The notes beneath the pieces were generated by a model. That model was not told the origin of the DNA. It searched no databases and saw only the letters and a list, made by a program, of their open reading frames with translations. A program made the translations under genes and the position numbers. From the NCBI GenBank assembly GCA_013407085.1, contig JACCGJ010003446.1:1-64000 (forward strand): a stretch of DNA of 64,000 nucleotides, in the 5' to 3' direction. The stretch is from Atriophallophorus winterbourni. Its lineage: Eukaryota > Platyhelminthes > Trematoda > Plagiorchiida > Microphallidae. Positions 31,773-63,715 of this stretch are shown here, piece by piece (the first letter of the stretch is position 1; every line of letters starts with the position of its first letter).

Positions 31773-33699
31773 AGTTGTCAAAAAGTTGACGCCTTTCTCT
31801 AACAATCATTTTTTGGTCTAGTGATATAACTGATGAGTTCATTTCTTCAGTATAATGTTGAGCACCGCTACCAACAAACTTAGTATATTTAAACATCTAA
31901 TATATCACCGTTTGTGCACGTTTTTAAGTAAATGGTTTTGTGCTGTTTGCACTCATCAGCAATGGACACAATGAATGTCCCACAAAACGCTTGAAGAATT
32001 GTTGAAAAAAGTTAAAATTTCAAATCAAAGTTGGACAGGTTCATTTTGCTAAACAGAAAATGTACACATGCATCCTACTAGATTCTGGAGCACTTGGCAT
32101 CAATTCAGGCCTATACATTTGAATAAGGCCAGCGTTACACTAAGGGGGGTGTATTTCAAATTTCTTCGGGGATTCCACACCAAGCCTTTTGCAAAACTGA
32201 GTATCCCACGAGGTAAAGGAGGTTTAGAAACAGGGTTTCTTTCCTCCATAGGGAGTGCCATTAATGGTTGGAGAGCTGCATCTTGCAAAATCCGCTCTAG
32301 TAGGCTGAGAAAAAAGCTATTTGGAAGCATTTTCTAAAATCGGGTTGTCACCATCTTGGCACGTGTATCATTAATACAACATTAGAAACATTATTCTCAC
32401 CGCTAGTCAGTGGATACTGAAGTTAATCAGTGATATGATCAACCATAATCAACCAAACAGCGAAAATGTTGACCATCACGATTCTGAAAGACAACGGCTA
32501 TCGTAATATTACAATTCAAGTTAGTCGATAATACATACTACTCATCATCAGCATTACATCGATAGCAAATACTGAATGTATAACTGCCACAAATCTATGA
32601 TAAAATAGAATCTCAAAAGATTGGGAAGGGTGGGACTTAATAAGTAACGAATTCTATTGCACAAACAAACTAGAATGAGGTGGCTACACTTCGAATGGAA
32701 AAAATCATTCAAATTTAGTGAACGAGTAGAGCGACTTCAGCGATGGGATCATCAAAGCTCTAAAATTAGGGACTCAATTGGCTCGTAACAGTTATGCAAT
32801 TATAGAAAAATCATATAAGCGCTTTCTGATATACAGCAAATATCAACAGCTAAACTATCTGAAGCCAGAGCCAATGCAGCCTACTTGTTTGAGGGTTGTG
32901 GCATTCAAGTCTCCGATGAGAGCAGAAGTGTTAAGTTTCAACGAGTGATTTTTGAGTTCAATAATAGAAGGATTAAAACAGAAAGAACTGATAACCATGA
33001 AAGAGGAAGAACCAGGAACAATTTGTACAGTAGGGCTTACTTGCCTGTGCATTCAATAGTTATGGCGATGCTGTTTAACGTGCACGAGAGCTGATACATT
33101 ATGGAGTTTGTTATTTTCGTCATAGTCGTATCTGACGTTTAGAACCCTACAGAAGAGGGCACAAGATGGCAGTAGCATCTATTCTCCTGCAGGCAACATG
33201 TCCGAAATATTTTCCATTATAAGGACACGCAGTTTTTGACGTTACTGATCGATCACGAATAAAATAACAAGAATCTAGAACCACCAGTGTGGATAAAATG
33301 TCCGAAGGACATCGCATTCAAGGACCTTTAAAAATTAATCTTTCCAGTTTGAATGACAGTGTCGGTGTGTAAAGAACGTCGCGTCGATTTTGTATTGAAA
33401 CAACCAGCCATAATGTGGTAAAATAAAAGCGATTCTCGGTCAAGCAATCTTATTACTTTGTTGACGCTCTGCAGGTAAATTTAATTATATAGAATCGATT
33501 GAACATAAGCTACAGTCTAGTCTCACCATGCAGAAATTGGACAGCTATATGTTGGATAGCGCAACGTCAATATCAGCGACAAAGTGCGTGACTTTATTAT
33601 CTGATTACAGCATGGCTCATAGACACATAATAAGCACTACTCATCGCTGTGATGCTAATCAGACAGTACACTAGCTTAAATTAAAATACTACAATAGTG
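31772..33699. other. no gene recognised
   Basis: Frames of 65-89 codons occur at 32068-32337 (plus) and 32100-32330 (minus), overlapping each other, and at 32855-33094. No motif, repeat similarity or splice support was identified. Confidence 0.35.
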
Positions 33700-34250
33700 C
33701 AGTCCATCGAGTAGTGGTTATGGAGATGATAGAGTTCGAGTCGTTCACAAACACGTTGTGATATCCTGAGCTATTTGTGCGTTCACGCAATGAACAATGC
33801 AAGGACTGGTTTCATTTTGGCAGCTCCATCAGAACACGCGGAGGCAGTCAAAATTGATAAGGCGGTCAATAAGGTTGATGAGGCATAAACTCCTATAATC
33901 TGACACTCAGTACTGATGCGAAAGTAAATCACTGATGTTCATCTTCCTCAAAATTTGTTCAACCTTAACCTCGTTAATTATGTACTTTGAGGCATGTGAG
34001 CCACAGCGTCAACCGACATTGACCGTGTTCACTTGTATTACATTGATCCTGGCAATGTCTACGTGACTTGATACGTCATAGGCTTAATATAGGCGGTGAG
34101 GTCACATAACCTAACTATCACAATTGGTATGACGAAGCATCTGTGTCCGAAGTAAAACGTTACCCAGAAAATTGTTCTAACCGATTGCACACAAACTTAT
34201 GTGAATTATGAATACACGATCAGTCCCAAACATAATCTATTCACTAATTA
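33700..34250 (+). mobile_element. PLE 3'-end fragment, copy C
   Basis: From about 33840 to 34200 the plus strand matches the end of PLE copy B: the remains of the terminal endonuclease codons (AAAATTG...GATGAGGCA), then the non-coding segment with TTAATTATGTAC and GACCGTGTTCA, then the hammerhead-like motif. About 140 bp just before it (33705-33838) resembles about 140 bp just after it (34253-34390), both ending in GTAGCTCC or GCAGCTCC with TGTGCGTT inside, so the fragment is bracketed by a diverged direct repeat. Confidence 0.65.
34128..34175 (+). ncRNA. degenerate PLE-type hammerhead motif
   Basis: GGTATGACGAAGCATCTGTG, then TCCGAAGTAAAACGTTACCC. The helix I strands GGT/ACC and the ACGT palindrome preceding the expected cleavage site are kept. 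CTGA has become ATGA and GAAAC is AAAAC, so self-cleavage is not expected. Confidence 0.5.
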
Positions 34251-34890: not shown

Positions 34891-37800
34891 ATCAACCGGA
34901 ACCGAGAGGACCAAGATTAAACTGGCGACGAAGTGTTTCGTAAGTTGCCAAGCTGATACTGGCCGCTGGCAGAACTTTCACCAAATTGGTGAACAAGCCT
35001 CGATAAAAACCAAATATCCCATCGTCCATCCAAATGGTACGTAGCAAATTGAGAGCGGTAACCTTCTGGTGACTCGTCTGGCTCCAATAGACAGCTTGCA
35101 GTTTAGCTCGGATTAGTGACGCGGGATACGTGACGATGATACCGCAGGCAGACGAGAAGGAGCCGAGTAAAGGAACGACATAGGTTGGCAAATGAGGAGG
35201 TTCGAGGCTGCGAATCGCAATAAGGTCAGTCATGATTACGTGATAAATACATGTAAACATATTTTTAAGGGCATCTTAAGGCATTCGAATAAAACTATGT
35301 AACTGTAGCTTAAAAAGGACTGAGGGTCGGAGTTTGGCATGAAAGCACAAGCCTGATCCAGGCAAAGTGCGGCAGAGTCAGAGACTGCACGTGGGCTAAG
35401 AAACTTTCAGGTTGACCAAGCCTAGACGGATTTGAGGAGGAAAAAAGAACAGGAAATGGTAGTGAGACTCCAGCCTGTTTCAGTATGAAGCTCACTTAAT
35501 CTGAACAATCAATTTAGCACGGTGCAACTACGGCATAATTGCACATCCGGGTCGGAGTGCGTGGCAACAAGTGTAACATGCCTCCATTTGATCACGGCTA
35601 ACAGCAAGAAATTGGTTGTGGTGTGCAAATGCGGAGGAGCGATTACGCTGAATGCAGACACCCGACGTGACTGCGCGAAACAAACAAATAATTAGCTGAC
35701 GAGGCTTTACCGGCGCTTCGTGAGAAAACGCGATGTCTCGCATTTATTTATTTAAAATGCTGACACACTACTGCTAGGAAGTGAAAAACCGCATTTCGGC
35801 AAATTACGATTTCAACGCTGACGTCATTATTCTTTGCGTAGCTGCAGAATCACAAATCTGAAGTAGCACAGTGCCACACAGTCTGGTCTGAGATGCTATT
35901 GTATACATTTAGAGATAACAATATGGAAAGGATGATATTAAAGCCACTGGTTTGAAATTGTGAACTATGGTAGAAACGAGTGCAGAGATGTGAAGTGCAC
36001 TAGCGAAGAGGTGGCGTAATTAACCTCCGACAAAACATAAAAGCAGAAAGCGCCGAAACAACCGACAAAAACAGTCGCAAAAATCAGGGTTTTGGAGGAA
36101 TCGCATAAGAATGGGTTGATTAAGAGCACGGTGGAAAACTGGAGTAGACGGAAAACATCAGCCGTTAGTGAACAATGCAATTCATCAAGGTTGGTCGAAC
36201 GAGCCCGACGTAGCGAAAGCTTGAAGTGAACCGGATGGCGCAAAAGCGGTTGGTAAATTACATCAAAGTGACAGGTACAAACAGGTTGGGGAAAGTGACT
36301 ATCCGATATAAGATGGGTGTGCGTTTCCTTTTTTCAGGTGCGTTATAATATGCGTTGAGCAATCGGGATTCACTTGTAATGTAAGATTCCTGGATGAACG
36401 CGTTTAACGTTGAAAATCGTGACCTCAACGGTGGATTGGGACGCAATCGATAAGTAGATGCGAAACACGGGGGAAATGTCAAATCGAGTGTCCTTGCAGC
36501 TTGTATAAATGACACGGATGTGCGACCGTGCAGTACTTCTGTTCTATGCGGCTAACATCGTGCTAAATTGATTGGGCACCGGTAGTGAGCTGCATGCTGA
36601 AACACGCTGGAGTCTCACTACCATTTTCCGATCTTTTTTCTTCCTCATATGTGTCTAGGTCTGGGAAACCTGACAGTATCTTAGCCCACGTGCAGTCTGA
36701 CTGTGCGGCACTTTGCCTGGATCAGGCTTGTGCTTTCATACCATAAACGACATGATAGACGTTAGAACAAGAAATACAATTCGACCTCGATTGACCACAC
36801 GTAATTATCACCCGTCCTTCAACACTAGGTTGAAGTGATATAGAAAACGCTAGTAAACAGTGTTACATTTCTGTACACGTCCCTGGCACCCGTCAACAAA
36901 CACATTGGTACTAAACTCAGCCGAGTTGCAAGACTACTACTAGCCAAGAAAGACACAACCAACCATGAAATTCGAAACCAGGATTAGCAATGAGAACATG
37001 GAGCGGAAAATTGCCAAGTAGCATGGAAGAAGATAATCAATAAATCGAAGGATTATGAGAAAACCGGCAAAACGAACAGCTCGAACCCCAAAAGAGGAGT
37101 ACTAATACACTGTTTTCGAAAGCCAAACATGTATATTGGGTCCTCCGTGTCTCATAGAGATTCACAGAATTCCTCGATCGACTGAATCATGTGGAGCTCG
37201 AATGTATTGAAACACCACGATACATAATGTTGATAGGTAAAACGCTGAACGACTTACTAAGAGAGTATAAAGATTTAATCACGGTTGTTCCGTTCCTCAT
37301 GAATGTGTCTTTGCAGTTTACACGCAACCAATGAGGAAGCATGGAAACGAACACTTTGGATGCCATTGAATAGGACATTATTGAAAATCGAAACACAACC
37401 CCACACTTTTGTAGTGACAATGCACAAAATACAAGTAGCAAGAAGTTAAATAATAGTCACGCCTAACGAGATAAACTTTAATAACCGGTGATTTCTCTGC
37501 TAGATAACAAGAACAGTTATGAGGGAAGAGGAACCGTATTTAGATGCGCTGCACAAATCTGCTATCAGTGGTAAGATGATTAAGGTGAAAAATAAGACAA
37601 GGTTCTGGATAATTGGATTTCTGGGAAGTTTTACAAACAACGAATAAGCTTGGGCGTCAGTGGTTACGCAAAACTAAACGCAAGCATCCTTATGAGAAAA
37701 TATGATTGACAGCGATTGTGATGTACATCCATGTTCGACATCGACCGAAGGAGACCAACAAAAAGAACGATTCCACGTGAGCTGTGCAAGTTCAGACATG

Positions 37801-40800
37801 AATACAGATGAGAAAGGGTAAGGCAAACACGATAAAACTGGATCACGCGGTAACACAAACATACTTTGGCGCGCTGTCGGGGAGGAAGTGATTGATGTAA
37901 GCAGACCTGCAGTTCTGTGATCAAATAAACAAAAAAGATGGTTGAAATACGATGAGAGAATAAGAATTATGAGCAGAATTATTAACTTTTCTAATTCGCC
38001 AGTCCCGTTATTGAAATAAATATAATGATACCGGGTACGCGAGGATATAAGTAGAAATTTCAGGTTTCCGGACCGTAGGCAACTTTTAATAATTTTGCAA
38101 ACTTGTTGGTAATACGGGGTTCATTAGTGAAGCGGTGAACATTTCAAGTCAGGGGTATCAGTATTAACCGAATGAGGACGCTGGTATTGGAACTCAGTAA
38201 ACCGTAATTTGACAAGTGGCCGATGTACCGGTATTCAATGTGCGGTTCCATGGATGTCGCAGATGGAGACGGTAGTGGGAATGAACACGCTATCATTTAT
38301 AAAAAATCTCTCAAATGACATGCGTTTCAAACAGCTTCTTACAAACAAATCCGATTCCTGTCTTGTACAAGTGGCCTACACAAAACAGGTCTAACAGCTT
38401 TTATTGACAGGAGCAAGGGCGTAGGGTGGTGACTGGCTCATCAAGACAAGATTTATTTGGGAAGGAGGAGTTCGCACTTTGTTGTTAAAGTCCATCTAGG
38501 GTAAGAAAAGACCCGATGCAAAGCCTACGCTTCCTGACAGATTAGCCTATTGCAAAAAGGTTTTAGCATTATACTGCAGAAACAATTCGGGGCGAAATCC
38601 TTTAGGCGGATAGTTGGCGTACAACGAAATCTTTCTGTCAAGTCACTGCTGCTTGCATGTTGCACTGGGATGCGCAATGTCATGAAATGTACTGGAACAA
38701 ACCACAAATGGTGTTGAGGAAATTAATTGCATATCATTCTTACGAAACTTCATGATAAAGTATCCTGCATCTTACATATAATACTCCATCTGCAAAAACT
38801 TTATATCGGTAAGTAAGTATTCAACATGCAACCTGTGCAGTTCTAAGGCCTGCAAGCAGAAGTGAGGCCAGTGGAATCAGTCAACCACGGCTGATTGGCG
38901 GGCAGGTACGCATGAAATCAAAAGCTTGGAGCCAGACAATGTACTGCACAACCAAAGAACCCCAATAAACTAGCAAAGCGCCATGGAACCTCGGTTACAT
39001 TTCAAAAATGGCTACTGTCTAGCAGCTCCTAAATCACACAGAAAAATCAGCACATAAAACTGCAAATGTACATGCACCGATTTGAAGTCACGCTACGGTT
39101 ATCTATGTCGCAAGACGGAAGCACAAGCCTGTATCCATGCGAAGTGCTACACAGGCATGAATTGCATGCGGATTAAGATAATGTCATGAAGCCCAGGTCC
39201 AGATAGATATAGAGGAAACGAAAGGCTGCATCGTGTTCGGGTGTGGAGCTTAGTACCGGTGGGAAATTAGTTCAATACGATTTTGCCCATGCAATGTAAA
39301 TCCGTGAACAAAATCATGTTTTACATATTATTAATTACGCATTAGAACGGAGCAAAATGGTAAAATATTGAGGTGTAAATAACGAAACAAAATATATCAA
39401 TTCAGAAAATCTGAATTACCTCGTACAACGCCAGTTCGATGCCAGCATACGGGATACCACCGAGTAAGTTGACGAAATATCCGCGATAAAACGTACTTAT
39501 ACCATGCTCCTGATAAACAGTCCGAGCACAGTGCCATATTGAATCGAACTGACCAGTCTTTCTGAGACACATGCGGGTTTTCAGGACCTACACATGAAAA
39601 ATCCGGGATTGGAAAATAATACATAATTTACGGATGCTGCAAATGACAAATCTGATACATCCTGTTCAAATAATGTATTGAAGAGTACTTTTTCACAATA
39701 CTTGATTGAAAACGTGTTCGATTTGACGTGTAGGCACCTCATCCCAGTGTGCCTGCGCCTAATCTTCTACAGGTTCAGTAGCTTTTTCGGTCCCACTCTC
39801 TCCCTTCTTTATAGGATTTCAACGTGTAATTGTTGTATGACACTTAAGCACCTACCACCGATGTAATACTGTTTATGATGAGCATGTGCCTTATATGGAT
39901 GGTGACGTGCTGCATGAATTATCATAAGAAATTAATTCGAGTTACATATGCGGTGCATTATCGTTGTCAGCAACAAAAATGGTGAACTTACATAACTATC
40001 ATCCTTGCACAGCCAATGCAAATACCATTGGTGGTATGGCATGGCATGGTATGAGGGCAAAAGCCTTATCCAGGCAAAGTGCCGGACAGTCATAGACTGC
40101 AAGTAGGCTAAGATAATGTCAGGTTGCCCAGGCCTAGACAGATATGAGAAATAGAGAATAAAGAGGGTAGTGAGACTCCAGCCTGTTTCAGCATGCAGCT
40201 GACTACAAGTATCCAATCAATTTAGCACGGTGTTAGCTGCACAGCTCAAAGTACTGTACGATTGGACATGCGTACAGTTGGTGAATACTCTATGACTGTA
40301 GCACATTGTGAAACTTCAAGTCACTTCTATCAAATTTGCAGCAAATCGATATTCGAATCAATATCAATCACCTTCTCAAAGCATAGAAAGTAGTAAAAAA
40401 GAATGTAACTCATGTAACGAATAATCAATAATATGTGTTCGTCGAGAATGTACAGTTGGTAGTAAAAGTTTTTTCACCAAATTAGATGAAACCATCAGCG
40501 TAATTTATAGCGAAACAAATGAGCCTTGAAATTCAACATATTTTATTCCATATTTTACTGCGTCCATAATTCTTGTCGTACGGCTGTCGTAATTCCGTAG
40601 CTGGCTGTAGAATGAACGGCATCTCATTGAATTCAAGTCCTTGTACCACAATGGCTCACAAACGCATGGCTGATTTACAATTTTTCCATTGTTTCGAACG
40701 CATGTGGATCCTGGTCTTACTATCGCTACCTCATGGATGCAAACAGCACAAAACCGGTCGTGGGATATGTGTGATGGAAATGCATGCAAATGAGGATTTT

Positions 40801-43800
40801 TCTTCATCCAACGGGTCTAACCTTATCTGCATGTGTGAGCACGTGATTGAACAGGCTGGTCGTTTCAAATGTATCAAAAAGTGGCTCAGAAACTCATACA
40901 AATTTTTAAAGGCATGAGGATCCTGGTCTTACTATCGCTATCTGATGAATGCAAACAGCACGAAACGTGTCGTGCGGTGTGTGATGGAAATGCAAGCAAA
41001 TGAGGATATTTTTTCCAGTCCTAATAGTTTTACAAAAAGTCGCGCTGACGATGTACATTTTTGTTCATGGCATATAAGCGCAACTTGTTTACCATTCTTC
41101 TACTGTTTCAAGCGCATCCGGATCCTGATCTTACTGTCCCTACCTGATGAGTGCAAACAGCACGAAACCGGTCGTGGGGTGTGTGGGTGATGGAAATGCA
41201 TGCAAATAAGCTTTATCAAAAACATTATAGTTTTATACTTTTGTTCGTATTCAAAAAATTTGTGTGGATAAATTTATTATCTAAACACAACTTAACGGTT
41301 ACATGACGAGGAAGTTTATTCCTTACTGTGGTCAGACATCCTGGCCAAGAGAAACATGAAAATTTGCATGCATAAAATTAAACCGCACGCCGAGAGCCTC
41401 ATGCTAAACTTACGCAAGTGGTTAGGTTTAACGTAATAAGTCTGTAAAGGAAAATCCAGTGGCTGTTCAGATGATTTTAAAACGGGGAAATGCAGAGTGA
41501 AAAACATCTCTAGAGCATGTATAGTTCACGATGTATTCCAATAATTATTACACGATATACGAATAGCCATGACTTAAGCAAATATGCGCGTGCAAGTAGA
41601 AAAGTAGTAATACAGTATGTCGGCAATGGCAGCTCACATGCAGAAATGAAATATGACTCAGAATTGAGTTCAGGTGCGCTCTTATTGTAGGCATCTTCTC
41701 CTAGTGTTACAAAAAGCATACACGTTGCCAAACGGGACTGCGAGCAAGGTTTGTTATGAAGCATGACAGTAAAAGTCGCAAGAAAGATGCCTTGCTTATG
41801 TCGGCCAATTGGCCCAGCCAATTAGAATATATGTATATCATGGTATCATGGTTGTATGGCATCTAAATATTCACTATTTACTAATAACGCAGTACTACAC
41901 AGCGGAAGTAAAAAATATAGACATGGACTCTAGACCGCCGGAAGCTAGAAGCTTCAAGATATGGCATGCACTCAGCAATTAACGCGCAGCACAGAAGTGC
42001 TGCACCATTGCACATCCGAACATGTCAATCTAGTACTCGACGATAGCTTCGGGAACGTTGGGAGTTTTATCTCCGCTGGGGATGAGTTAAGGGCGAGATC
42101 TCACAACGTGCACGCAAAGCGAGTGCAGCGCCCGCTGGCCCTTATAATTTGCGGCGACGATGCAGTTGCGCGAGTCACGTTTCTCTATGATTGCGAAACC
42201 TGGTCTATCCGAGCGATAGCTGTGGTTCAGCATTTTGTTTTTAACATCCCTATCTGGGAAGGATTGCATTTGGTGGCAGCATCCCGTTGCTAAAATAGAT
42301 GTTAGGACTAGGAAGCCACGGAGCAAAAGAAATTCTGATGAAAGCTCGTTTGCAATGGTTGGGATATGCTTTAAAAATGCGAAAATAACGCTTGTAATAG
42401 CGCGCTTTATTCACAGAACATGTCAGAGGTCGCTAAGAATGGCCCGGTGACCTGCCAAATACGTGGAGTACTGGGATGAAGAAGCTCAGCGGGGCATAAT
42501 AACTTGTCTAAGTGGTCTCGAAAATTCACTAAATTGTTCTTTGGAAACATTAAGCGATATGGTTGCAAACCAAGTCAGTACCGCCGATGCTGTTTATGTC
42601 TGTTAATTTTTATCCTGTAGCATTTCTTATGAAAAGCAAAATACAAATCGCGTGCATTGAAAGTAAAGAGAGCAGCTTTTTATATGCATTTGCATGTTGT
42701 GCCTGCCCGTTTCCGTTTTACGCATTTGCTCATTGCTGTCACTGCTTCATGTTGCATTGGCACATTGTATGGCTCCAGACCAGTGCCTGATGATAATGAT
42801 GACGATGAAAAAACATAAGTTAAACGAATTAAGCCGCTGACAATACAGTAATCGGTAGACGACATCGTGGCTGACCGCAATATTCCTCACAACCAAACTT
42901 TAACCAAAATAAGACGGATATGAAAATGAAGGGGCAAAACCTGACACACAGACTAGATCAAAGTGAGTTAAAAAGCATCGAAATGGGGGTAACCAATGAA
43001 TCAACACACAAGGTTAGCTGATTTCAACTGTGGCCAATGCGACAAACCATAGAGTCTGGAACTTGCCTCAAGTGGATATATCATCGTCTGCGCAGTCGAC
43101 CCGGCCAACGATCCAGCTAAAAACTCGGTTAACAGTGGACTTTCGGTCAGTACACCACCAAACCAGTGATGGTTGATTTCAGGAGAGGACAGGAAACGCT
43201 TGTAGTGCTCATAAGATCCATACTTCAATGCGGTTTCGGGAGCGATTTTCAAAACATTGATGCCATTTCCTCGCCAAAGTGAATAAAATCCGCCTTCCCT
43301 GAGCATATAACTGTAAGCTGAAAAAGTAACAATTGGAGTTGATGGAAACGGCTAATCAATTAATCGACATGTGATAATAAACAGATTTGGCATATTTCCA
43401 TCATATAACCTCAACAAAAAGTTCCTTCTCATGGGGAATGTTAAGAATGTATGCACACCACACGAAATTGTGGTCACTTTATTGTGCTCCTTCATATTAT
43501 TTGTCGCCGAAGAATTTACGGAGGCTTGGAACTAATGTCGCGTGCAATCATAAAACCAAAAGTAAAGAGATGAATAAGTCTGCCGAAATAAGGAATAAAT
43601 AGTTTAATGCATACAGTTTCGTTTTAGTATTCTATGATGAGGATGGCTTCACTGTGATTAGTTATAACTAAAATAGCACATAATTTTGATAATTGACTGA
43701 TTGTAGCATATTAATTTGTGGAGGTAGTAATATTTGTCAATTGGTGTTCAAAAAGCTTGTTTTTGACTATTGTGAGTAGTGCGACAATAACTCCATTGTG

Positions 43801-46800
43801 TTAGTGGCATTCTGTTCATTCGCAGAACTTGGCTGATTTAGCAAGCGCTGACCTAGGTGTAAGAGCTTCAACCTTAGTAGTATAGACGTAATATTTTCTT
43901 ATATTTGTCTATCAATTGGTAACCTGACAATTTCTTAGTCCACGCGCAGTCTCGGACTAGAAGTGGGCACTTAGCCTGGATCCAGGGTTGTGATTTCATA
44001 CACACAAGGAAAACGGAATATGCAAATGCAAATGCGCAAAAAGTAGCTTGATTTTCTAAAATATAATATAATAATATCGGATAAAAATTACGACAGACAT
44101 AATAAAATACAATGGTGCCAGTGATTTCGGTTTGCAGCCAACTATTAGGTTGATGTCTTGGACCCCGCCCATACAAACAAATACGCTCCACTGAGCCAAC
44201 CTCAACGTAAGTTTCCTCACCCAACGTGCCACGTCATGGACTGGCCAACCCCTCATTTCTCCCAGCTTCTACCAGGTTCTGCGAATAACGCGCGGTATGG
44301 TAAACGGTGATGAAGCATTCTTAAAACATTTCCCAACCATTGCAAACGAGAAAGCATCAACATTTTCCTCAGTCCGTGGCATTTTGGCCCTAACACTCGC
44401 TTGCAGACATCTATATTTGTAACGCGATGCTGCCACCGAATGTGAGCAAGCCAACGCAGGAAACGAGTGTCAAAAACGGAAAGCCGACCGATATCTTTCG
44501 CTCGAATCGGTAGGGTTTTGCAGCCATAAATTAGTGTTGCACGAACGACTGCATTGTACACTTGGCCTTTAGCACGGAGTGAAACATCGCGCCGACGCCA
44601 CAAATGGCGAAGATTAGCAAACGCTGTAACCTTTTACTAACACGTGAGATCTGTCTTCAATACAACCGCCAGCTGAGATAGAACTGCCGATGTAAACATA
44701 ACTGTCGACAAATTCAAGATCGACACTAAACAGTGATATTTCGGAGAGCAGCTCCAGTCCTGAGTAAGTGTTTTAAACCTGTTAGGCGAAAAGAACATAC
44801 CATGCCTTGAGGCTTCAAGAGCTTATTGCATTATATGAGTGTCCTTTTCCAGAAGTGTGATGCCATCTGTATACTCGAGATCGGTAGCTTTGTTACCCGG
44901 CAGAAGTTCAAAACCTGCGTCCATCGGACCAGCTAAAGTTTTGCTTAGGGCATCGTCGATCGCTAAGTTAAAAAGGAACAGTGATATTGGGCAGCCCAAC
45001 CGCACGCCGTTGGGGATATTTAACGAGGACGAAAATTGCCCGTAAGATCAAACCCTGCCTGATGTTTGGCAATAAAATGCTTTCAAGATCCAAACACATC
45101 TCGGGCACTCCATGTCTCAGCGGACAGTCCCAAACATTTTCGCCATTGATTGAATCGAATACCGCTTGGATGCCAAGGAGTACCACGATAGTTGACCTAC
45201 GAAATGTGTGGCTCCGGTAATTGAGAGAGTGCCAAGATTTGATCGATACACGATCGACTGGCACGAAACCCACTCTGCACCTCACGGATTTGCTCTTCCC
45301 GTTTGGTACTCAAACGGTGAAGCAAGATGAACAGATACTTACTAAACAGATACTTATACCAAAATGATGATCTTAGGAATCGCGCATTTCCTTTTTTGAA
45401 AATCGGAGCAATTACTGATTCTCTTTAAGGGATCGAGACACGTTCCTTAGCTTATATGTTGGCGGATGCCACTTGAAGTTCGCAAACTGGAGCGAAACAA
45501 TTACACACGATATGCATGCAATGACGATAGCAACATGCAACCGAAAAGTGCACACATTTCGCTGGAGAAAATATGAAAAGAGGTGATGTGACAATTTGAA
45601 AAGCTGCTAAAAATCAAATGGGAAAATGCAGTGGTTGAGCTAAAAAAAGACGCACCCTCTACAAAGCCACTTCCTTTGTGCTTATAGCCATGGACTTGTC
45701 GCATCAACTTCAGCCGATCAATCGGGGCCGTGCATGTTCGCGATACAGCCCCAGCAATCGCACCCGCGGCTAGTTGAAGTAGCTGTCGTGCAGTTGGTGT
45801 TGTAAAAGAGGAGGATGTAGCAGGGAAACCAACATCAGCGTCCCCACTGGGGTCGAGCTATTGAGAGCAACGCCGTAAATGGATTTTGTGAGAATATTAT
45901 GATTCTATGCATTCATATGGAAAGAAGTATATACCAAATGGATGGGTTGTGAAGCGCGGCAGTACGATACAACTACTACCAATGCTAATGCTAAAGTTAA
46001 TAGCCATTATTATGCAAATAAATTTGAGTACAATCAGTTGGAGCACGTTGTGTAACGTTTCACTTAAGGCGCCGAAACTTCTTTGCAATATGAATACTTT
46101 ATCGGTCCCAAACATTATCCAATCGATTAATAGAGTTTACTTTTCAATATAAAACAAGGCTATTTAACATTACTATAACTAAGCTATATTGTTATTATCG
46201 GAAATTGCTTTTACTCGAATCAGTGCAAACTACCTAGAGGTCGTTCACAAAGCAGTATGCCAGAGCTTTGGTAAACCGCTTTATACGAAAATCCGCACGA
46301 GAGCACTATGAGAAATAATCATTTGATGAAGAATGTATAGATAAATTGGCGTGGACTGTTGGGAGAAATATCGCCGTTTTAGCTGCGTGGAGAGCAAGTT
46401 TCACATTTGACTTTAAACTATGCTTTGCACAAGTCCCATGGTGCATGAAAACGATGGCAGCACAAACACTGTTGGATGCGTTCAGATGAAGAAAAAGCAC
46501 CGATCTATTACGTTAAGTTGGAAACTTCTTTATCTGGCCAGCGGCCAAACACTGTTACAAGAGATTGCGAGTTAACACGTGGAAATGATGAAGACCCGAA
46601 AATGCGTCTGTGTACTATGTCCATCATTTACTTGTATAGATACATATAACGCTAGCGAGTAACTCTAGGATTTATTGAAACAAATGAAGAGTTCAGACAA
46701 ACGTTATAACGATGCCTCGTAACAATAATATTTTTGGGGCGTGTTCTCGGAATCAATGTTCCACATTACATCGCTTACGCTCGCTCGTAGGTTGGCGTGA

Positions 46801-48424
46801 TACGAGGAATTAATGCAGAAAAATAAACTGTGACGGAACGGAGAAAAAGATGGTATTAATTTGTCGAAATTTCATTCAAAAAAGGGGCGTTGGAAAATTA
46901 TATTGAAATTATAACCAATAAGCTGACCGTGATTAGGCACCAGTATTCGAATAATTTGGAGACGTTTTCAGCTGGGTGAAACAGGAAGAACTCCCGCCAT
47001 TGATTATAATCCATTGTGAGACTTCCTGTCTGGTCGACACGCCGAAGTAATCTATTCGCTTCTTCATTGCTGAGTTCGATACCGAATCGGTGAAAAGTTT
47101 CCTTTATATCCTCAGAAGTGACGTACCCTATAGAATCGAATAATAGGAATGATGTAATATTAATAAAGCAAGAATGGAACAATTTCCAAATAAATAAAAA
47201 AATAAAAAATCATATAACAATATTCACGGCCGCATAGATATTTAGTGATATATAAATTGTGTTCGCAGTAAAATGGAAATGTTCAAAATTCGTTACAAAA
47301 CTATAATGATGTGCTAAGCTAAGCATATGCAATAAATTCTTGACGCATTGCACGGATGCGCAACGGTGTTGTATGGTATGGTATGAAAGCACAAGCCTGA
47401 TCCAGGCAAAGTGCCGCACAGTCAGAGACTGCACGTGGGTGATATTACTGTCAGGTTGCCCAGGCCTAGACAGATATGAGAAATAGAGAATAAAGATGGT
47501 AGTGAGACTCCAGCGTGTTTCAGCACGCAGCTCACTACCAGTGGCCAATCAATTTAGCAAGGTGACAGCCGCACAGCACAGTACTATACGGTTGCAGATC
47601 CGTGCATAACGGTGTTGTACTTGTGTTACGCTTAAGCGATACTATGCTGAATTGATTTTCATGAATACTAAGCCGTATGCGAAAACATTAAAAACACACT
47701 CTCATTGTCTCCTTAATCCTGTCTAGATATGAGCAACTAAAACTTGAACGTGACGGTATAATGGGACACGAGCACGTGTGACTGTGCTGCACTTTACCGG
47801 GAACGAGATTTCTGTTTTCATACATTTAGCAGTTACTCAACTTTTTCGAGCACCCAATCTAATTTCACTATGATATAAAAGTTGATGTCAATAATTAACA
47901 ATTTTAGAGCAAACACATTATGGGGTGGCCGGCGTTATGTATTTCAAGGATATGTTTGTCAACACAGGTTTGCAACAAAGCACAGAAAAAGCATTTGTTT
48001 CGAAATTTTGGGTCATTATTTTGATGATATATGTAGGAACGGGAGTGGAACACAACCCAGAAACAATAAAATGCGTAAAAATTAATATCACTAACCAGTT
48101 TTTTTCGAGTCCAAATGATCAAAAGCCACAGAAAGACGCTTATCATGCTCAAGAACGTAATTCATGAATTCACAGAAGGTGATTTCTTGAGTTGAATTGC
48201 TATTGCATCGGCTCATAAAACTCTAATAGTCTGAAATGCGGAAATAAACGAAATACCTCTGCGATTTGAGAGTGTATCTCGTTTCGCGATTCACCATGAT
48301 GTTTTTTTAAAAGCCGGAGAATATCCGAACTAGAAATTCGGCCATCTTCGTTAATATCAATTCGGTGAAATAACTGCTTTAGTTCATGCTCATCGATGTT
48401 GCGATCCGGCCTGTTTAAAACCAT
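34891..48424 (-). CDS. SLC25A24-like: calcium-binding mitochondrial carrier, SCaMC / SLC25A24 type (spliced)
   Basis: Host gene on the minus strand. Members of this family are ATP-Mg/phosphate carriers of the inner mitochondrial membrane with an N-terminal EF-hand domain facing the intermembrane space. Exons (5' to 3'): 48424-48257, 48222-48096, 47127-46928, 45857-45656, 43317-43067, 39587-39420, 35207-34892, with stop TGA at 34894-34892. Coding length is about 1,430 nt (about 476 residues), close to vertebrate SCaMC. All junction phases agree except between the last two exons. Carrier signatures: PIDRLK (repeat 1), PLEVLK (repeat 2), and PASLIR (repeat 3, matching the family's non-acidic third motif). 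The start is uncertain: ATG 48424 is possible, but an AG at about 48410 could be an acceptor for an upstream exon. Confidence 0.85.
34892..35207 (-). CDS. carrier last exon: repeat 3 and stop
   Basis: Encodes [33 protein letters not shown] and [20 protein letters not shown], ending GPLGSG and stop. The best acceptor CGCAG|CCTC leaves one extra base, whereas the preceding exon ends in phase 0. A short exon of 3n+2 bases (about 7-11 residues) between 35208 and 39419, or a different acceptor, is needed. The in-frame sequence upstream contains ALKN, like the family's LLK linker, hinting at an alternative boundary near 35255-35268. Confidence 0.85.
35310..35525 (+). repeat. dispersed SINE-like repeat, family R1
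   Basis: About 210 bp with CAAGCCTGATCCAGGCAAAG, a TCAGAGACTGCACGTGGGCT block, GTGAGACTCCAGCCTGTTTC and the end CAATTTAGCACGGTG. The same unit occurs at 40040-40235 and 47370-47565 (plus) and 36560-36750 (minus), with partial copies at 39120-39230 (plus) and 43915-44000 and 47760-47825 (minus). On the minus strand it gives long spurious frames. It has no coding role that I can see. Confidence 0.8.
35526..39119. other. carrier intron, no other gene recognised
   Basis: Apart from the R1 copy at 36560-36750, the interval holds no recognised element. A missing short carrier exon may lie here. About 40 bp at 37720-37760 (TACATCCATGTTCGACATCG) recurs at 31686. Confidence 0.4.
36560..36750 (-). repeat. 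SINE-like repeat R1, inverted copy
   Basis: Reverse complement of the R1 unit: begins GTGCTAAATTGATTGG, contains GAAACACGCTGGAGTCTCAC and ends TGGATCAGGCTTGTGCTTTC. Confidence 0.8.
39120..39230 (+). repeat. SINE-like repeat R1, degenerate partial copy
   Basis: Diverged copy starting GAAGCACAAGCCTGTATCCA and reaching AGCCCAGGTCCAGATAGATA. It lies close to carrier exon 6. Confidence 0.6.
39420..39587 (-). CDS. carrier exon 6: repeat 2
   Basis: 168 bp, phase 0 at both ends, encoding [14 protein letters not shown], then [19 protein letters not shown] and [17 protein letters not shown], a strong match to SCaMC repeat 2. The acceptor is GTGTAG|GT; the donor is GAG|GTAATT. The region was not apparent from the longest frame because that frame runs out of register. 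Confidence 0.9.
40040..40235 (+). repeat. SINE-like repeat R1
   Basis: Near-complete copy including GTGCCGGACAGTCATAGACT, CCCAGGCCTAGACAGATATG and GTGAGACTCCAGCCTGTTTC. It ends at CAATTTAGCACGGTG. Confidence 0.8.
40723..40765 (+). ncRNA. degenerate hammerhead motif
   Basis: Core changed to CTCATGG, and CGAAAC to CAAAAC. Helix III palindrome ACCGGT and cleavage-site C are kept. Not expected to cleave. Confidence 0.7.
40935..40977 (+). ncRNA. hammerhead ribozyme, core intact, weaker helices
   Basis: CTGATGA at 40942-40948 and GAAAC are kept, with ATGC/GCAC helix II (one mismatch). Helix III is ACGTGT and the cleavage-site base is C. Helix I (CGCTAT with GTGCGG) has two mismatches, so activity is doubtful. 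Confidence 0.7.
41138..41179 (+). ncRNA. hammerhead ribozyme, all core positions intact
   Basis: Helix I strands CCCTAC (41138-41143) and GTGGGG (41174-41179) pair fully with one G-U. Conserved core CTGATGA (41144-41150). Helix II GTGC/GCAC with loop AAACA. Conserved GAAA (41164-41167). Helix III is only ACC/GGT with no loop, forming the palindrome ACCGGT. The cleavage-site nucleotide is C41173 (GGTC). A loopless three-pair helix III is the known form in schistosome and newt satellite hammerheads, which favours cleavage when two copies pair. Predicted from sequence only. Confidence 0.9.
41930..42500 (+). mobile_element. RTE-like non-LTR fragment (plus)
   Basis: In shifting frames: [15 protein letters not shown], then [13 protein letters not shown], then [20 protein letters not shown]. 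These correspond to the region after the polymerase in RTE-like elements of flatworms (LGSxISxGG, LLYxCETWPxR, RLRWLGHVLRM). The same family is on the minus strand at 44253-45320. Dead remnant in a carrier intron. Confidence 0.65.
43067..43317 (-). CDS. carrier exon 5: repeats 1-2
   Basis: Encodes [39 protein letters not shown] and [18 protein letters not shown]. The acceptor is TTTTTCAG|CT. The donor is GAG|GCAAGT, a GC-AG intron that otherwise matches consensus. The next exon begins VLKTRM, completing PLEVLK. Confidence 0.9.
43915..44000 (-). repeat. SINE-like repeat R1, partial inverted copy
   Basis: Contains CTTAGTCCACGCGCAGTCTC and TAGCCTGGATCCAGGGTTGT, equivalent to the first half of the R1 unit read in reverse. 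Confidence 0.6.
44253..45320 (-). mobile_element. RTE-like non-LTR retrotransposon, RT and C-terminal part (minus)
   Basis: Minus strand from 45285 down: [20 protein letters not shown] (finger/palm block with the first catalytic aspartate region FDS), [39 protein letters not shown] (usually RQGCPLSPFLFN), then [10 protein letters not shown] in place of the catalytic YADD. After a frame change come [17 protein letters not shown] text, [17 protein letters not shown] and [19 protein letters not shown] to 44253. Broken and with a mutated active site. It lies in the intron between carrier exons 4 and 5, on the same strand as the gene. Confidence 0.8.
45656..45857 (-). CDS. carrier exon 4: linker and first transmembrane helix
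   Basis: Encodes a short serine/threonine-rich linker and then [35 protein letters not shown]. This is the first carrier repeat with signature P-I-D-R-L-K. The acceptor is CAATAG|CTC; the donor GAGG|GTGCGT is phase 1. Confidence 0.85.
46928..47127 (-). CDS. carrier exon 3: EF-hands 3-4
   Basis: Encodes [19 protein letters not shown] and [20 protein letters not shown], a clear match to the family's EF-4 and the FLFxP segment. The acceptor is CTATAG|GG; the donor ACG|GTCAGC is weak but keeps frame and alignment. The EF-4 loop ([12 protein letters not shown]) ends in glutamine instead of glutamate. Confidence 0.85.
47370..47565 (+). repeat. SINE-like repeat R1
   Basis: Near-complete copy, preceded by GGTATGGTATG. 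It is similar to 40040-40235 along the whole unit and lies in the carrier intron between exons 2 and 3. Confidence 0.8.
48096..48222 (-). CDS. carrier exon 2: EF-hand 2 (degenerate) and start of EF-hand 3
   Basis: Contains [17 protein letters not shown] and [12 protein letters not shown], aligning with the family's LDFEEFMxYLxxHEKKxxLAF. The EF-2 loop reads [12 protein letters not shown], lacking the first aspartate and the glycine. The donor is ACTG|GTTAGT, phase 1. Confidence 0.82.
48223..48256 (-). other. 34-bp micro-intron
   Basis: Starts GTATTT and ends ATTAG. Removing it joins IAE to SFMSRC in frame; retaining it leads to a stop after 18 codons. Introns of this size near gene starts are known in schistosomes. 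Confidence 0.75.
48257..48424 (-). CDS. carrier exon 1: EF-hand 1
   Basis: Encodes [19 protein letters not shown] and onward; loop [12 protein letters not shown] has acidic or oxygen ligands at positions 1, 3, 5 and 12 and glycine at 6, so it is a plausible calcium site. The donor is GAG|GTATTT (48256 downward), phase 0. Confidence 0.82.
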
Positions 48425-48559: not shown

Positions 48560-49215
48560 TGCGAATATTATGCGATGATGCTATAAACAGAATAATTAAT
48601 AAAGCTCATTTGCATGCAATTCCATTACACACACCCACGATCGGGTTCGTGTTGTTGGCACTCATCAGGTCGGAGAATAGGCAGCGCTACCACGATGCTC
48701 TGAGAGGTTCATTTGCGACCATTACCCCACTAATGTTCCACACACTATTCTCTGCGTATATCCGTTCTCGGTTAGAATATAGGCTACCCGTTGCATTTTC
48801 TCGGTCTAAAGGCGAATGCGACTCCCTAGGGGACTACATAAGAGGGGGGCTAAAATGGTTCGTCGAAAGCGCCACCTCGCGTGCAAGGATAGAAGTAGCT
48901 TACTAAAACTTAGAACCCTGGATCTTTGAATAGAAAGGTTTGACCTGCTCCTGACACGCGTAATCTTCGCGGTCAATATGGATAAGAGTTCCACCGGTAC
49001 TTCCTATTAGTAGGTGAGTCGAGGGATTGTGGCATGACCTTAAGTTGCAGAAGCCTACAAGGCTAAGGCTGAGTAATGCGAGCACGCTGGTGAACACTCG
49101 GAACTCTCTACTGATGTGGCTACTGTCTCTACCATCATAACAGCTATTCTAAAGCGCGTTGGATAAGCATTTGTGAAGACGGATGGACCAGAATCCGGAG
49201 TGATTTAATTGTGTT
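48560..49215 (+). mobile_element. CR1-like non-LTR fragment (RT thumb to C-terminus)
   Basis: From about 48690: GSFATITPLMFHTLFSAYIR and SRLEYRLPVAFSRSKGECDS (family pattern RxFxxITPxxFxxLYxxYVRPxLEY), then in later frames to 49180 an LRLSNASTLVNTRNSLL-like block and ALDKHL near the end, the usual NxLP...FKxxLD finish. Contains several shifts. Its start overlaps a minus-strand hammerhead monomer remnant (48600-48672). Confidence 0.65.
48634..48675 (-). ncRNA. degenerate hammerhead monomer, minus strand
   Basis: On the minus strand CTGATGAGTGC (core at 48668-48662) is kept, followed by CAACAACACGAACC. GAAA is changed to GAAC. The downstream part of the monomer (TGTGTGTAATGGAATTGCAT) runs to 48602. 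Confidence 0.65.
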
Positions 49216-49365: not shown

Positions 49366-49640
49366 TTATACATGTTCTACGGCATTTACAATGACTAACC
49401 GGTCTACTTCTGGAAGAACAATCTCTCCAACACCGCTAAGATGATTGGCGAATCTCGTTCGATCGGCGTGCGTTGCACGCCAGCAGCGAGATCTGCGTTC
49501 AGCAGCCAAGAGAATTATGTGCTCGTCCCCACATTGCAGACAACATTGTACACAATGCCTCCTATATGAGCGGTTAAGCGCAAGTTCTTTCCGACTAGCG
49601 TGTTGACAGCCATGATCATTCATCTCTACAAAAGCTCATT
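49366..49640 (-). mobile_element. non-LTR ORF2 C-terminal fragment, same family as 31168-31640
   Basis: Encodes LALNRSYRRHCVQCCLQCGD and IILLAAERRSRCWRA, the LAxDRxxWR...LLAAERRSRR block also found near 31450-31560. Only the extreme C-terminus remains. Confidence 0.6.
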
Positions 49641-50130
49641 TGAATGCATCTCCAGTACACACCACACAAGCGCAACTCTTTTATCATTCATCTGTGTTTT
49701 ACAAACGGTGAGTGCGCTCTCCCAATAGTAGAGTAACTGATTCCAACTCACCTTAAAGTAGATCTTTCGGAATACGACCATTTTGCAATGTATTGTGGTG
49801 CTCACATCCCCATTCCTCACACACCATCACCGGTTTCTGGCTGTTTGCCGTCATCAGGTGGAAACAGTAAGATCAGGTTCATTGAGACTTGAGACAGTGG
49901 AAAATCGGAAAACGAAGTTAAAATTGTATGCCACTGTAATTTATGGTTCTTAAAAAGAACCACCATGTTTAAATACAGAATCACGAAGTGATTCCTGCTC
50001 AAGTGCATGAGGCGCATATAAAAGACCAATGTATTGTGGTGCTCAAATTCCTATCCCTTACATACCACTTCCGGTTTCTCGTTGTTTGCCGTCTCCAGGT
50101 AGGGAGAGTAAGATCAGTTTCAGTGATTCT
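49625..50130 (-). repeat. two to three degenerate hammerhead monomers, minus strand
   Basis: Monomer 1: on the minus strand CTGATGA (49857-49851), GGC/GCC helix II, GAAAC, then ACCGGTG; the base after ACCGGT is G, which does not support cleavage. Monomer 2: core changed to CTGGAGA (50098-50092) with GAAACCGGA. A further 3' monomer piece (49630-49670, CAAATGAGC in reverse) lacks the ribozyme. The spacing of the two cores is about 241 bp. Confidence 0.6.
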
Positions 50131-50720
50131 CCAACATTGGAAAGGCAGTAAACCTTTCCATTCTGTAGACTTGTCGAAGCCACTGCAAACTGCGCTGACG
50201 TATTAGGGTGTACATTTTCTGTAGGAAAGCCTTTGAAAGCACTTCAGCATTAGTCAATTCGTCCATTCACGATATGCTCAAGATACAACGAATGCTCCGT
50301 ATATGGAAAGCATTCATCTTTTTTTCGTGTTTTGCATGGATGGTCCAGGTTTCATTGCCGTACTGTTAGGTATTTACTACACACGCACTGTATACCATCA
50401 ACTTTGTCTTTATATTTAATTTGTGTTTGTGTCTGAGAGGAATATTCAATCTCGACAAAATGAAGGCTGCTCTGCCAACATGCTTATCAATCTCAGTGTA
50501 TCGCAAAAAAGGTTCCAGCAATTGTTGAACCTAGAATTTGAAATGATGTAGTGGTTCAAGTCGACAGTTTTCCACAGTGATAATTGGAGGCGATGCAATT
50601 TGCCTACTAAGAACATTGGTATTGCTCATGCTGATGGTTAAATCAAAGTCTTTGTATGCTCAATAAAAAACTGTTCGTTAGAGACTGTAGGTTTTCTTCG
50701 CAATAATGGCTGCATCTTTG
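50131..50720. other. no gene recognised
   Basis: No family motif was found in any frame. Confidence 0.35.
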
Positions 50721-51620: not shown

Positions 51621-53099
51621 GTCCATCATGATCCATTCATCACGATCACCTTCTATGACCGATTACACTCAAATGTCTTTGCATTATAAATACACGATCT
51701 GTCCCAAACATATTCGAATCGATTGTACACCTTGATCCTCTATTTCTTTGGTAAGCTTATGACTACTATGCAAGAGACTGCAATCCATAATAAATATGTA
51801 TCTCAACTAATTCGCAGCGGAGATGCTCAGAAAACGCGCCTAGGTAAACCGTCTACACTGCAAGTACATATATAAACAGCCTCACAATTTAGATTGTCCC
51901 TCAGATTACAATCACACGCCAAGAGGCTTTTCTACCGTAGTCCAATTTAGGTTTGGTGTACCTGGTGTCTAGGTGAAAGAAAGTGATTTTCTAAACGGCA
52001 GCAAAATATATACATATATATATCGTGGTTTATCTTACGAACCATATTTATCAGTGTCATTCAAGTATAACATTGTTTACGACAACACCACTATTTCAAG
52101 ACTAACTAAAACTAAATCTACTGTCTCCATCTGATATCGACAAACGACCGGAAACCGGTTGCTCAGTGTATGTTCTGATGATGTGAGTTCCAACATACAC
52201 CAGAAACTATAAGTAATTTCCCTTGCGTGAATGAGTTCTAAGGTCACATTGCAATACGGACAAAAAAGTGGTTTTCTCACAGCCACCGTATTTAAACGCT
52301 ACTTTTTAAATTCTGGCTCTTTATCGTCATCTGGTAGAGACAATATTACTAGTTTAAGTGAGCCTCGAAGAGATAAAAAGATGTTATACTTTCACGCACC
52401 TGTTACAACCAACTACAACTTTCAATTTCGTTAAGTTTCTTGGTCCAAAGTTTAATACGTTCAAATTTTTTATTGTATTGTTGTGCTCATATCAACGCAA
52501 TTACACACCACAATTGATTTTTGACTGCAAGATTTTACACAAATGCACATACGAAGTGATTTCACGTTGACCTTTAAATTACAACAAACTAAAGTATTAC
52601 CTTCTAGAACAATCATTAAAACAAGTTACATTATTTCGTGCACACGACTATTGACGGCTTTGGTAATGTAAGTTACACGGATGGCCACCGTTAACGTTTC
52701 TGCGGTCGAAACTGTTTTAAGTTAAGCTTCTTGCCGTTTCACATCATCCTCTCGGAATCTATTGCAGATTTAGCGTCGACGTTCAATCCATAGATATCAC
52801 ACAGCGCATTATACGACTGTGCCTATTAAACTATAATATATTTAAATGCTTTTGCTTTGTATACCATGATTCAATAGTTATTGTTGATCTGATTGCTTTT
52901 GTACAATTAACAGTTTTAGAACATGATACGGATATAAAAATTAATATTGTAACGTAATAGTTGGTTCCTAAGATATTGGTTACGCTCGGCTTCTGACATA
53001 CAAGCTTAGTCAGAACAATGGATTCCGTAAGCAGGGAAATCAGGGTTACGTTGCTTTAACCTGACAAATCATAAGATTGGGCGCGTATTGACTCGTGGT
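51621..53099. other. no gene recognised; PLE-flank repeat and hammerhead relic
   Basis: At 51655-51735 is the short repeat that follows PLE 3' ends. At about 52060-52200 is a diverged plus-strand hammerhead monomer, listed separately. A short (TA) tract lies near 52008-52025. No coding sequence was recognised. Confidence 0.45.
52124..52166 (+). ncRNA. degenerate hammerhead motif
   Basis: CTGATATCGACAAACGACCG followed by GAAACCGGTTG. GAAA and the ACCGGT palindrome are kept but CTGATGA has become CTGATAT. Confidence 0.5.
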
Positions 53100-63519: not shown

Positions 63520-63715
63520 GGCTCATGTGATTGAACAGGTTAGTCGTACCAAGCCTACCCAACAGTGGCATACAAGCGCAACTTGTTTACCATTCTGCCA
63601 CTGTTTCAAGCGCATGCGGATCCTGATCCTACTGTCCCTACCTGATAAGTGCAAACAGCACGAAACTGGTCGTGGTGTGTGTGTGTGTGTGTGATGGATA
63701 TGTATGCAACTGAGC
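63520..63715 (+). repeat. single hammerhead monomer
   Basis: Matches the monomers at 40.6-41.2 kb, from GTGATTGAACAGGTTAGTCG through GTTTCAAGCGCATGCGGATC to GTGTGATGGATATG, with a GT-rich expansion (63676-63692). Confidence 0.8.
63636..63680 (+). ncRNA. hammerhead motif with one inactivating core change
   Basis: Helix I CCCTAC, helix II GTGC/GCAC with loop AAACA, and GAAAC are identical to the perfect copy at 41138. The core reads CTGATAA at 63642-63648, and helix III is ACTGGT. The G-to-A change at an invariant position should abolish activity. Confidence 0.75.

Follow-up and report, generated by a model that had tools for sequence, protein, structure and literature searches.

The stretch analysed here, 64,000 nucleotides of contig JACCGJ010003446.1 of the microphallid fluke Atriophallophorus winterbourni (hereafter the window), contains a mitochondrial carrier gene on the minus strand, and one intron of this gene carries a short array of hammerhead ribozyme repeats on the plus strand. 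The array consists of three diverged head-to-tail units at 40,649-41,213. With good probability it is a worn non-long-terminal-repeat (non-LTR) retrozyme, that is, a non-coding 233-bp tandem repeat with a type I hammerhead, likely copied from RNA into the intron by the enzymes of a resident Penelope-like element. The features at the locus are as follows.

40649..40797, plus strand: unit 1, a hairpin and a hammerhead with a dead core (nhmmer 140.7 bits as a profile seed; core parse)
40878..41007, plus strand: unit 2 (nhmmer 114.5 bits as a profile seed; Rfam 22.6 bits; core parse)
41066..41213, plus strand: unit 3, intact (nhmmer 152.6 bits as a profile seed)
41138..41179, plus strand: type I hammerhead core of unit 3 (Rfam RF00163, 32.9 bits; helices I and II fully paired)
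39588..43066, minus strand: host intron, GC-AG, about 3.5 kb (exons 43321-43064 and 39611-39420 by tblastn; splice sites by eye)
34895..48394, minus strand: carrier gene of the SCaMC type, seven exon-like matches (tblastn with six carriers; Pfam Mito_carr on three exons)
48394-48251, 48222-48094, 47128-46940, 45857-45642, 43321-43064, 39611-39420 and 35200-34895, minus strand: the exon-like matches of the carrier gene (tblastn)

The preliminary description of this DNA, made from its letters alone, had recognised the antisense placement in an intron of the carrier gene, and minus-strand exons on both sides match fluke SCaMC proteins. It had also described three monomers of about 207 bp, head to tail. 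Three copies are present, spaced 212 and 202 bp from start to start; the full unit of the family, however, is 233 bp, and a spacing of about 207 bp is that of worn units. Over 98 nt, the later two copies are 76% and 83% identical to the first copy. Compared with one young copy from the genome (locus L028), unit 3 is 92.8% identical over 138 nt, unit 1 is 80.4% identical over 143 nt, and unit 2 is 85.9% identical over 99 nt only. These differences suggest that the array is old and that its units have aged unequally. Its GC content is 43.2%. As a decayed copy of a known kind of repeat, the array is unremarkable, and the host intron is probably incidental to it. In view of its antisense orientation and of the damage to two of the three ribozymes, the array is probably inert for the carrier gene. 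Unit 3 is nearer to the young copies, and also to a unit at 63,562 (87% over 156 nt), than units 1 and 2 are. Possibly unit 3 was inserted later, next to an older pair, or the source array was itself mixed. A 13-nt match between the junction of units 1 and 2 and positions 2185-2197 was dismissed as lying within chance expectation.

The core of unit 3 (at 41144) holds CUGAUGA and GAA, with C41173 as the cleavage residue. The core parse agrees with the earlier account of this third monomer in every point: the invariant nucleotides are present, helix I (6 of 6 pairs) and helix II (GUGC/GCAC, 4 of 4) are fully paired, and helix III is a loopless ACCGGU. Unit 2 had been said to keep its core as well, at 40942. 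Its invariant residues are indeed kept (cleavage residue C40971), but its helices are weakened: an A.C mismatch closes helix II, helix I has 4 of 6 pairs, and helix III reads ACGUGU, unlike those of its neighbours. Unit 1 carries three changes in the core, CUCAUGG for CUGAUGA and AAA for GAA (G5, A9 and G12 in the conventional hammerhead numbering). The substrate half of unit 1 (ACCGGUC^GUGGG) is intact, with C40759 as the cleavage residue.

A covariance-model score over 41138-41179 had been proposed as a check of the ribozyme. In the Rfam scan of the whole window against all families, Hammerhead_1 (RF00163) matched exactly these positions with 32.9 bits (E 2.5e-4), and unit 2 scored 22.6 bits. 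The better score is nevertheless below the gathering threshold of 34 bits, and read literally the check fails; a scan of the window at that threshold gave no hammerhead match, nor did a gathering scan of 15 loci of the family. Both units of the young, intact L028 also score 32.9 bits, and the shortfall therefore belongs to the family and not to the window array. It is most simply explained by the loopless helix III. The curated Rfam threshold thus passes over a hammerhead family that looks intact. No hammerhead was found on the minus strand in the Rfam scan. Since the repeat is antisense to the gene, the carrier pre-mRNA bears its complement, without an Rfam hammerhead.

The helix III sequence ACCGGU is palindromic and loopless, and within one molecule only an A-U pair under a CCGG loop can form. 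In an unconstrained two-strand fold, two strands of unit 3 gave an exact double hammerhead, in which both helices I and both helices II form, the cores stay free and six pairs make up a common helix III. The core of L028 likewise gave a double hammerhead. From the palindromic, loopless helix III and this fold we predict that efficient cleavage needs dimers, in line with the stronger dimer cleavage foreseen in the preliminary description. Unit 3 folded with unit 1 gave a single correct junction, in which the unit 3 core lies on the unit 1 site, and no joint structure was obtained in the two-strand fold of unit 3 with unit 2. On secondary structure, the sole basis of these cleavage predictions, the unit 3 core would cut a plus-strand transcript at the unit 1 site, after C40759, and an efficient cut after C41173 would be expected only when unit 3 is paired with another intact core. 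The release of a monomer of about 200 nt between 40971 and 41173, as envisaged earlier, is not borne out, given a weak unit 2 that fails to pair with unit 3 in the two-strand fold. In the predicted fold of the retrozyme unit, helix I is extended and internally looped.

The array belongs to a larger repeat family. A profile built from six window copies matched 12 places in the 64 kb at E<1e-3, six of them its own seeds, whereas 20 dinucleotide-resampled windows (63,985-64,000 bases) gave three matches, the best with 6.8 bits. This control and the Rfam E value rule out a chance motif. Apart from the array, the matches in the window are as follows.

63562..63716, plus strand: further unit with a dead core, CUGAUAA (nhmmer 149.1 bits as a seed; core parse)
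49799..49938, minus strand: further unit of a second subfamily, with G at the cleavage position (nhmmer 112.5 bits as a seed; core parse)
50040..50154, minus strand: further unit, degenerate, tandem neighbour of 49799-49938 (nhmmer 51.6 bits)
48602..48701, minus strand: further unit, degenerate (nhmmer 81.5 bits as a seed; core parse)
49632..49666, minus strand: fragment of a further unit (nhmmer 14.4 bits)
52052..52173, plus strand: further worn unit (nhmmer 28.9 bits)
31934..32003, minus strand: further worn unit (nhmmer 25.2 bits)
35579..35625, plus strand: further worn unit, antisense in the last intron found of the carrier gene (nhmmer 23.8 bits)
4453..4598, plus strand: further worn unit, downstream of a Penelope-like remnant (nhmmer 19.0 bits)

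The genome search covered the window's own assembly (537 Mb, 15,840 contigs); its first-look candidates are not confirmed copies. With unit 3 as the query, the best 40 of 1488 first-look candidates were scored and gave at least 42 matches; all but one of those listed were 90-100% identical, and the first was the window itself. With a young unit as the query, the best 40 of 582 candidates gave at least 125 matches, and at least 41 of those listed were 97-100% identical over 231-233 nt, each with an adjoining piece by eye. Copies hold from about one to more than four units, and the GC content of the young unit is 45.5%. On these sequences, the family is a young, high-copy 233-bp repeat of which the window array is an old copy. 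The intronic array had been called a less usual setting. This judgement does not hold, given the 12 places in the window, the dozens of matches scored in the genome and the hammerheads already known from fluke introns, as published for one schistosome gene family (PMC2576457). Forty-one cores were parsed in 20 fetched loci and the window; 20 were intact and 24 had ACCGGU, and this helix III was found in 14 of the 20 intact cores. The ribozyme of unit 3 is the commonest form. Since the census includes some duplicate contigs and at least one spurious parse by eye, and the parser demands a near-core, the intact share cannot be extrapolated to the genome. Public viral contigs contained no match to a 25-mer of the core, and a 20-mer had three matches in public prokaryote contigs.

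The boundaries of the copies were analysed on a common coordinate, in which the unit is a 233-nt circle, counted from the C in the CTACCTGATGA of an L028 unit, and cleavage falls after position 33. Ends were mapped by gapped local alignment; an earlier BLAST map had halted at an indel-rich GTGTG run in worn copies. Copies below 80% identity, pieces shorter than 0.4 unit, duplicate contigs (L019, L025, L027 and the second copy in L012) and ends at stretch edges were excluded from the counts. Eleven of the 20 3' ends lie at coordinates 64-81 (18 nt), one of them being the junction of the chimera described below. The densest 18-nt interval holds 12 ends, a number that none of 2000 uniform simulations attained. 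The 5' ends are scattered, with 6 of 21 in the densest interval, as reached in 380 of 2000 simulations. The window array, which at 71% identity was excluded from the end count, ends at coordinate 73, inside 64-81.

Target-site duplications (TSDs) were found in 4 of 30 clusters (L028, L031, L030 and L020) and additionally at L056, all of 14 to 50 exact bases. That of L028 comprises 50 exact bases, or about 61 with one mismatch by eye; that of L030 comprises 16, or 29 with one mismatch by eye. Those of L031, L056 and L020, the last a worn copy, have 14 bases each; the neighbours of L056 in the TSD test mostly run off their stretch. Ten flanking repeats were flagged in the test of 30 clusters, five of which are pieces of the unit (L014 twice, L029 twice, and the window at 49,817). 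A flagged 31-bp flanking repeat of L030 (5448/5688) was not counted as a TSD, and the flag at L057 was rejected as unit sequence. Seven of 30 retrozyme loci (6 of 27 once duplicate contigs are removed) carry an inverted piece of the unit at their 5' end, and none of the 30 shows the opposite arrangement.

A physical link between the retrozyme and a Penelope-like element was found in a chimera (L012/L032). A 13-bp repeat (TAAGAAGGATGTA), a few bases of which could be Penelope sequence at its 3' side, encloses all parts in the order TSD, inverted Penelope tail, one full retrozyme turn, Penelope coding end and tail in the same sense, and TSD. The retrozyme segment measures 240 bp and runs from unit coordinate 64 round the full turn to coordinate 69. 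It is not flanked by duplicated Penelope sequence, as a nested insertion would leave. The most economical reading of this sequence is a single insertion, during which reverse transcription would have moved on from a Penelope transcript to retrozyme RNA. No further independent chimera turned up: among 40 matches to a junction query, four places share one duplicated context and the other 36 are Penelope alone. In the open-licence literature searched by title and abstract, we did not find such a chimera described. The chimera lies in a 3.9-kb tandem repeat (98% identical; L012 1-7310 and L027), and in both L012 copies an open frame of 123 codons crosses from the retrozyme into the Penelope coding part.

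Remnants of the Penelope-like element are also present in the window itself.

2462..3888, plus strand: Penelope-like remnant, reverse transcriptase (RT) at 2462-3414 and endonuclease region at 3595-3888 (tblastn)
332..1334, minus strand: Penelope-like remnant, RT at 1269-883 and endonuclease region at 661-332 (tblastn)
53403..54299, minus strand: Penelope-like remnant (tblastn)
33834..34237, plus strand: Penelope-like remnant, coding end and 3' flank only (tblastn; blastn to other remnants)

Of 348 candidate proteins, 283 were related to the remnant at 53403..54299 at E<=0.001, and many of the 120 listed carry Pfam RVT_1. A young family of this element exists in the genome, with 34 of the 40 junction-query matches covering 71 bp of the coding part at 97%. 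In L041, a single frame is open over at least 593 codons, and within it weak RT matches (PDB, E 9e-4) precede a GIY-YIG match. Canonical Penelope-like elements have the same order, RT and then GIY-YIG, in one frame (PMC11167929), and on this resemblance the label Penelope-like is likely, not strict, for the resident element. Its 3' terminus is identical in seven of eight ends inspected, two of which come from one tandem array. The chimera apart, three of nine loci tested (L037, L039 and L040) have TSDs, which measure 13, 13 and 15 bp, and a 5'-inverted tail occurs at three of 16 partly overlapping loci (L040, L043 and L045).

The Penelope-like element bears a hammerhead-like motif of its own, CUGACGA-AGCUUCUG...CAGAAGC-GAA-ACGU, and had no match in the Rfam scans for it. 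By pattern, this motif lies on the same strand downstream of the coding part at nine of 16 loci, is present only in inverted form at two and is unmatched at five. The inspected copies, none of them full-length with both pseudo-LTRs, end in their own tail, not in the 233-bp unit, and most have this different motif. In several copies of the motif (L038 2027-2068, L041 1045-1086, L046 and others), an extra A follows CUGACGA before helix II, and helix III is a palindromic ACGU.

These marks can be placed beside what is known of animal retrozymes, which are short tandem repeats with type I hammerheads that are transcribed, self-cut, ligated into circles and probably retrocopied (PMC7229834; PMC7761336). 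The same two sources call their partner element unknown and Penelope-like elements a strong candidate, a candidacy that rests on coexistence and shared hammerheads; according to the 2020 review, metazoan retrozymes have no conserved motif that would reveal the mobilising autonomous element (PMC7761336). In the course of events that we consider probable for the retrozyme family, the palindromic ACCGGU of helix III would let multimeric transcripts form double hammerheads and self-cleave into units; a host ligase would circularise these as in other animal retrozymes. The Penelope RT would then start about 40 nt past the cleavage site, with a candidate site near GCAAATGAATATTTTG, run one or more laps and insert the product. 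The internal 3' end of the retrozyme insertions agrees by analogy with the Anolis Penelope protein, for which synthesis is reported to start at an internal site of its own RNA (PMC11167929). The shared insertion marks and the chimera support, from one event, the published idea that Penelope-like elements mobilise retrozymes. We lean slightly towards a more general statement, that animal retrozymes are RNA parasites of Penelope-like elements: RT would start at a fixed internal site on the circular RNA, make several laps and jump between templates, and the chimera would record such a jump and name the autonomous partner.

Several observations weigh against these readings. As to the ribozyme, self-pairing in the two-strand fold is also seen for unit 1 and for unit 2, in non-hammerhead shapes, and helix III is not palindromic in six of the 20 intact cores (ACCAGU in four, ACCGAU in two). 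The circular fold of one young unit, 64% paired, is no stabler than random sequence (z -0.7), and seven window copies show only weak covariation (both sides change in 3 of 16 pairs, a level reached in 32 of 500 shuffles). Schistosome hammerheads with a very short stem III are reported to have cleaved in vitro as single motifs (PMC8490949); by analogy, dimers may not be needed. As to the insertion, nine of the 20 3' ends fall outside 64-81, including those of the TSD-flanked L030 and L031. TSDs were found in few of the clusters tested, and no flanking TSD was found for the window array in the test of 30 clusters. The loci were picked by similarity to unit 3 or to the young unit, and their integrity and ends are thus not a random sample. 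As to the partner, the chimera junction occurs at four places with common flanks, partly a 3.9-kb tandem repeat, which count as one event. The GIY-YIG match of L041 (17.8 bits) is below the Pfam cut-off of 22.6, and one of the 16 Penelope loci (L042) has the opposite, tail-to-tail arrangement. Finally, insertion by the Anolis Penelope in vitro is reported not to need its own hammerhead cleavage (PMC11167929), which calls for caution against an essential role of the ribozyme in insertion.

It is worth weighing other interpretations of these results. The retrozyme might have been moved by another non-LTR element, a long interspersed nuclear element (LINE), or amplified at the DNA level, the chimera being accidental. 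The single chimera event and the nine 3' ends found elsewhere would fit this view, as would arrays of more than four units (L053, L054, L055 and L060 fill stretches of 1 kb), which unequal crossing-over can make; moreover, the marks were compared with Penelope copies and not with LINE insertions. The TSDs, the clustered 3' ends and the 5'-inverted pieces, however, mark RNA-templated insertion, and the same marks are seen on the Penelope copies. We regard this alternative as rather unlikely. It is improbable that the units are the Penelope-like element's own pseudo-LTR (pLTR) hammerheads left in tandem. Penelope-like elements do bear minimal hammerheads in their pLTRs (PMC7761336), the worn units at 4453-4598 and 52052-52173 lie downstream of Penelope-related sequence in the window, and a 34-nt match joins the tail of unit 3 to one Penelope 3' flank. 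This match is absent from the other two flanks tested, however, and the resident family has its own, different motif; the chimera apart, a retrozyme unit lies close to only one of 16 Penelope loci (L038), on the other strand. In a comparison of seven unit tails with three Penelope 3' flanks (21 pairs), only one pair beat all 300 resampled tails, and its similarity was absent from the other two flanks; a pLTR origin was rejected.

A short interspersed nuclear element (SINE) derived from a tRNA, of the schistosome Sm-alpha kind, is still less probable. Sm-alpha also bears a type I hammerhead in a fluke (PMC8490949), and a published drawing of an S. mansoni retrozyme RNA includes a tRNA-Glu sequence (PMC4918200). 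On the other hand, ARAGORN found no tRNA-like gene in 40300-41700, where box motifs were not searched separately, and the host is not close to schistosomes by COX1. Hammerheads are also known from amniote introns (PMC6155905) and from introns of Schistosoma mucin genes (PMC2576457), and the ribozyme might accordingly be thought to process the carrier transcript. It lies opposite to the gene strand, though, the Rfam scan gave no minus-strand hammerhead, and two of the three units are damaged. A processing role is highly improbable.

As a worn retrozyme, the array can be compared with described systems. Metazoan non-LTR retrozymes share with it a type I hammerhead, tandem repeats of 150-450 bp, a GC content below 50%, TSDs of more than 4 bp, dimers to long arrays and coexistence with Penelope-like elements (PMC7229834); this family adds the clustered 3' insertion end and the Penelope chimera. 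The HHR_Amex1 ribozyme of newt and axolotl has a helix III of a single pair and a palindromic tetraloop, and in the axolotl its dimers are reported to cleave well and its monomers poorly (PMC7229834), as is predicted here. It differs in its repeat of about 330 bp, against 233 bp, and in its unrelated host; activity here is a prediction. The minimal hammerheads of Penelope-like elements likewise have a very short or missing helix III, with dimer cleavage reported (PMC7761336). Unlike them, the retrozyme has a helix I predicted to be extended and looped, and its unit lies outside the Penelope-like element, which has its own motif.

Among flukes, the Sm-alpha and W elements are likewise repetitive sequences whose type I hammerheads have a very short stem III (PMC8490949). 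Compared by description only, they differ in that no tRNA-like part is found here and that the W monomers have other lengths. A schistosome copy with a CUGANAA core is reported as inactive (PMC8490949), and the same change is found in the unit at 63,642. In the SmPoMuc introns of S. mansoni, a hammerhead again lies within a fluke intron, and all gene groups but one are described as lacking G12, as does unit 1. There, however, the motif lies between exons 9 and 10, with Pol III boxes, whereas here a three-unit array is antisense (PMC2576457). The evidence at the level of the family outweighs the array itself: it points to dimer-type ribozymes in an invertebrate retrozyme and, from one chimera and the shared marks, to a physical Penelope link. 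The insertion marks in this genome and the TSD-bounded chimera make the idea of a Penelope partner directly testable, and the young family supplies the material.

The exon stretches of the host gene resemble fluke mitochondrial carriers of the SCaMC type, which bear EF-hands. Their closest named relatives among the 120 matches listed are from Opisthorchis, Clonorchis and Fasciolopsis, and no schistosome is among the named ones. By COX1, read in the flatworm mitochondrial code, the host is closest to Prosthogonimus cuneatus, a microphalloid digenean, at 80% identity. The schistosome link drawn earlier is thus not supported by either comparison. COX1-like stretches occur on contigs C4859, C4746, C11485, C8922, C10138, C4773 and C15234, most with TAA or TAG stops, and the copy on contig C6618 is interrupted by TGA only. 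The stretches on the first seven contigs appear to be mitochondrial DNA copied into the nucleus, or else divergent mitochondrial contigs.

The donor of the array-bearing intron, at 43,066, is apparently GC (GCAAGT) and not GT. Another dispersed repeat of about 190 bp (79-85% identity) lies inside the span of the carrier gene, at 35335-35524, 36556-36743, 40047-40232 and 47376-47564. A frame at 44253-44633 on the minus strand has a weak Pfam DUF6451 match, and we take it to resemble the end of a LINE-type reverse transcriptase. Two near-alike, gag-like direct copies lie on the plus strand at 20,423-22,473 and 23,746-25,552, with CCHC-like cysteines by eye and a weak Pfam DUF1759 match (E 0.043); we assume that they perhaps belong to a BEL/Pao-type element.

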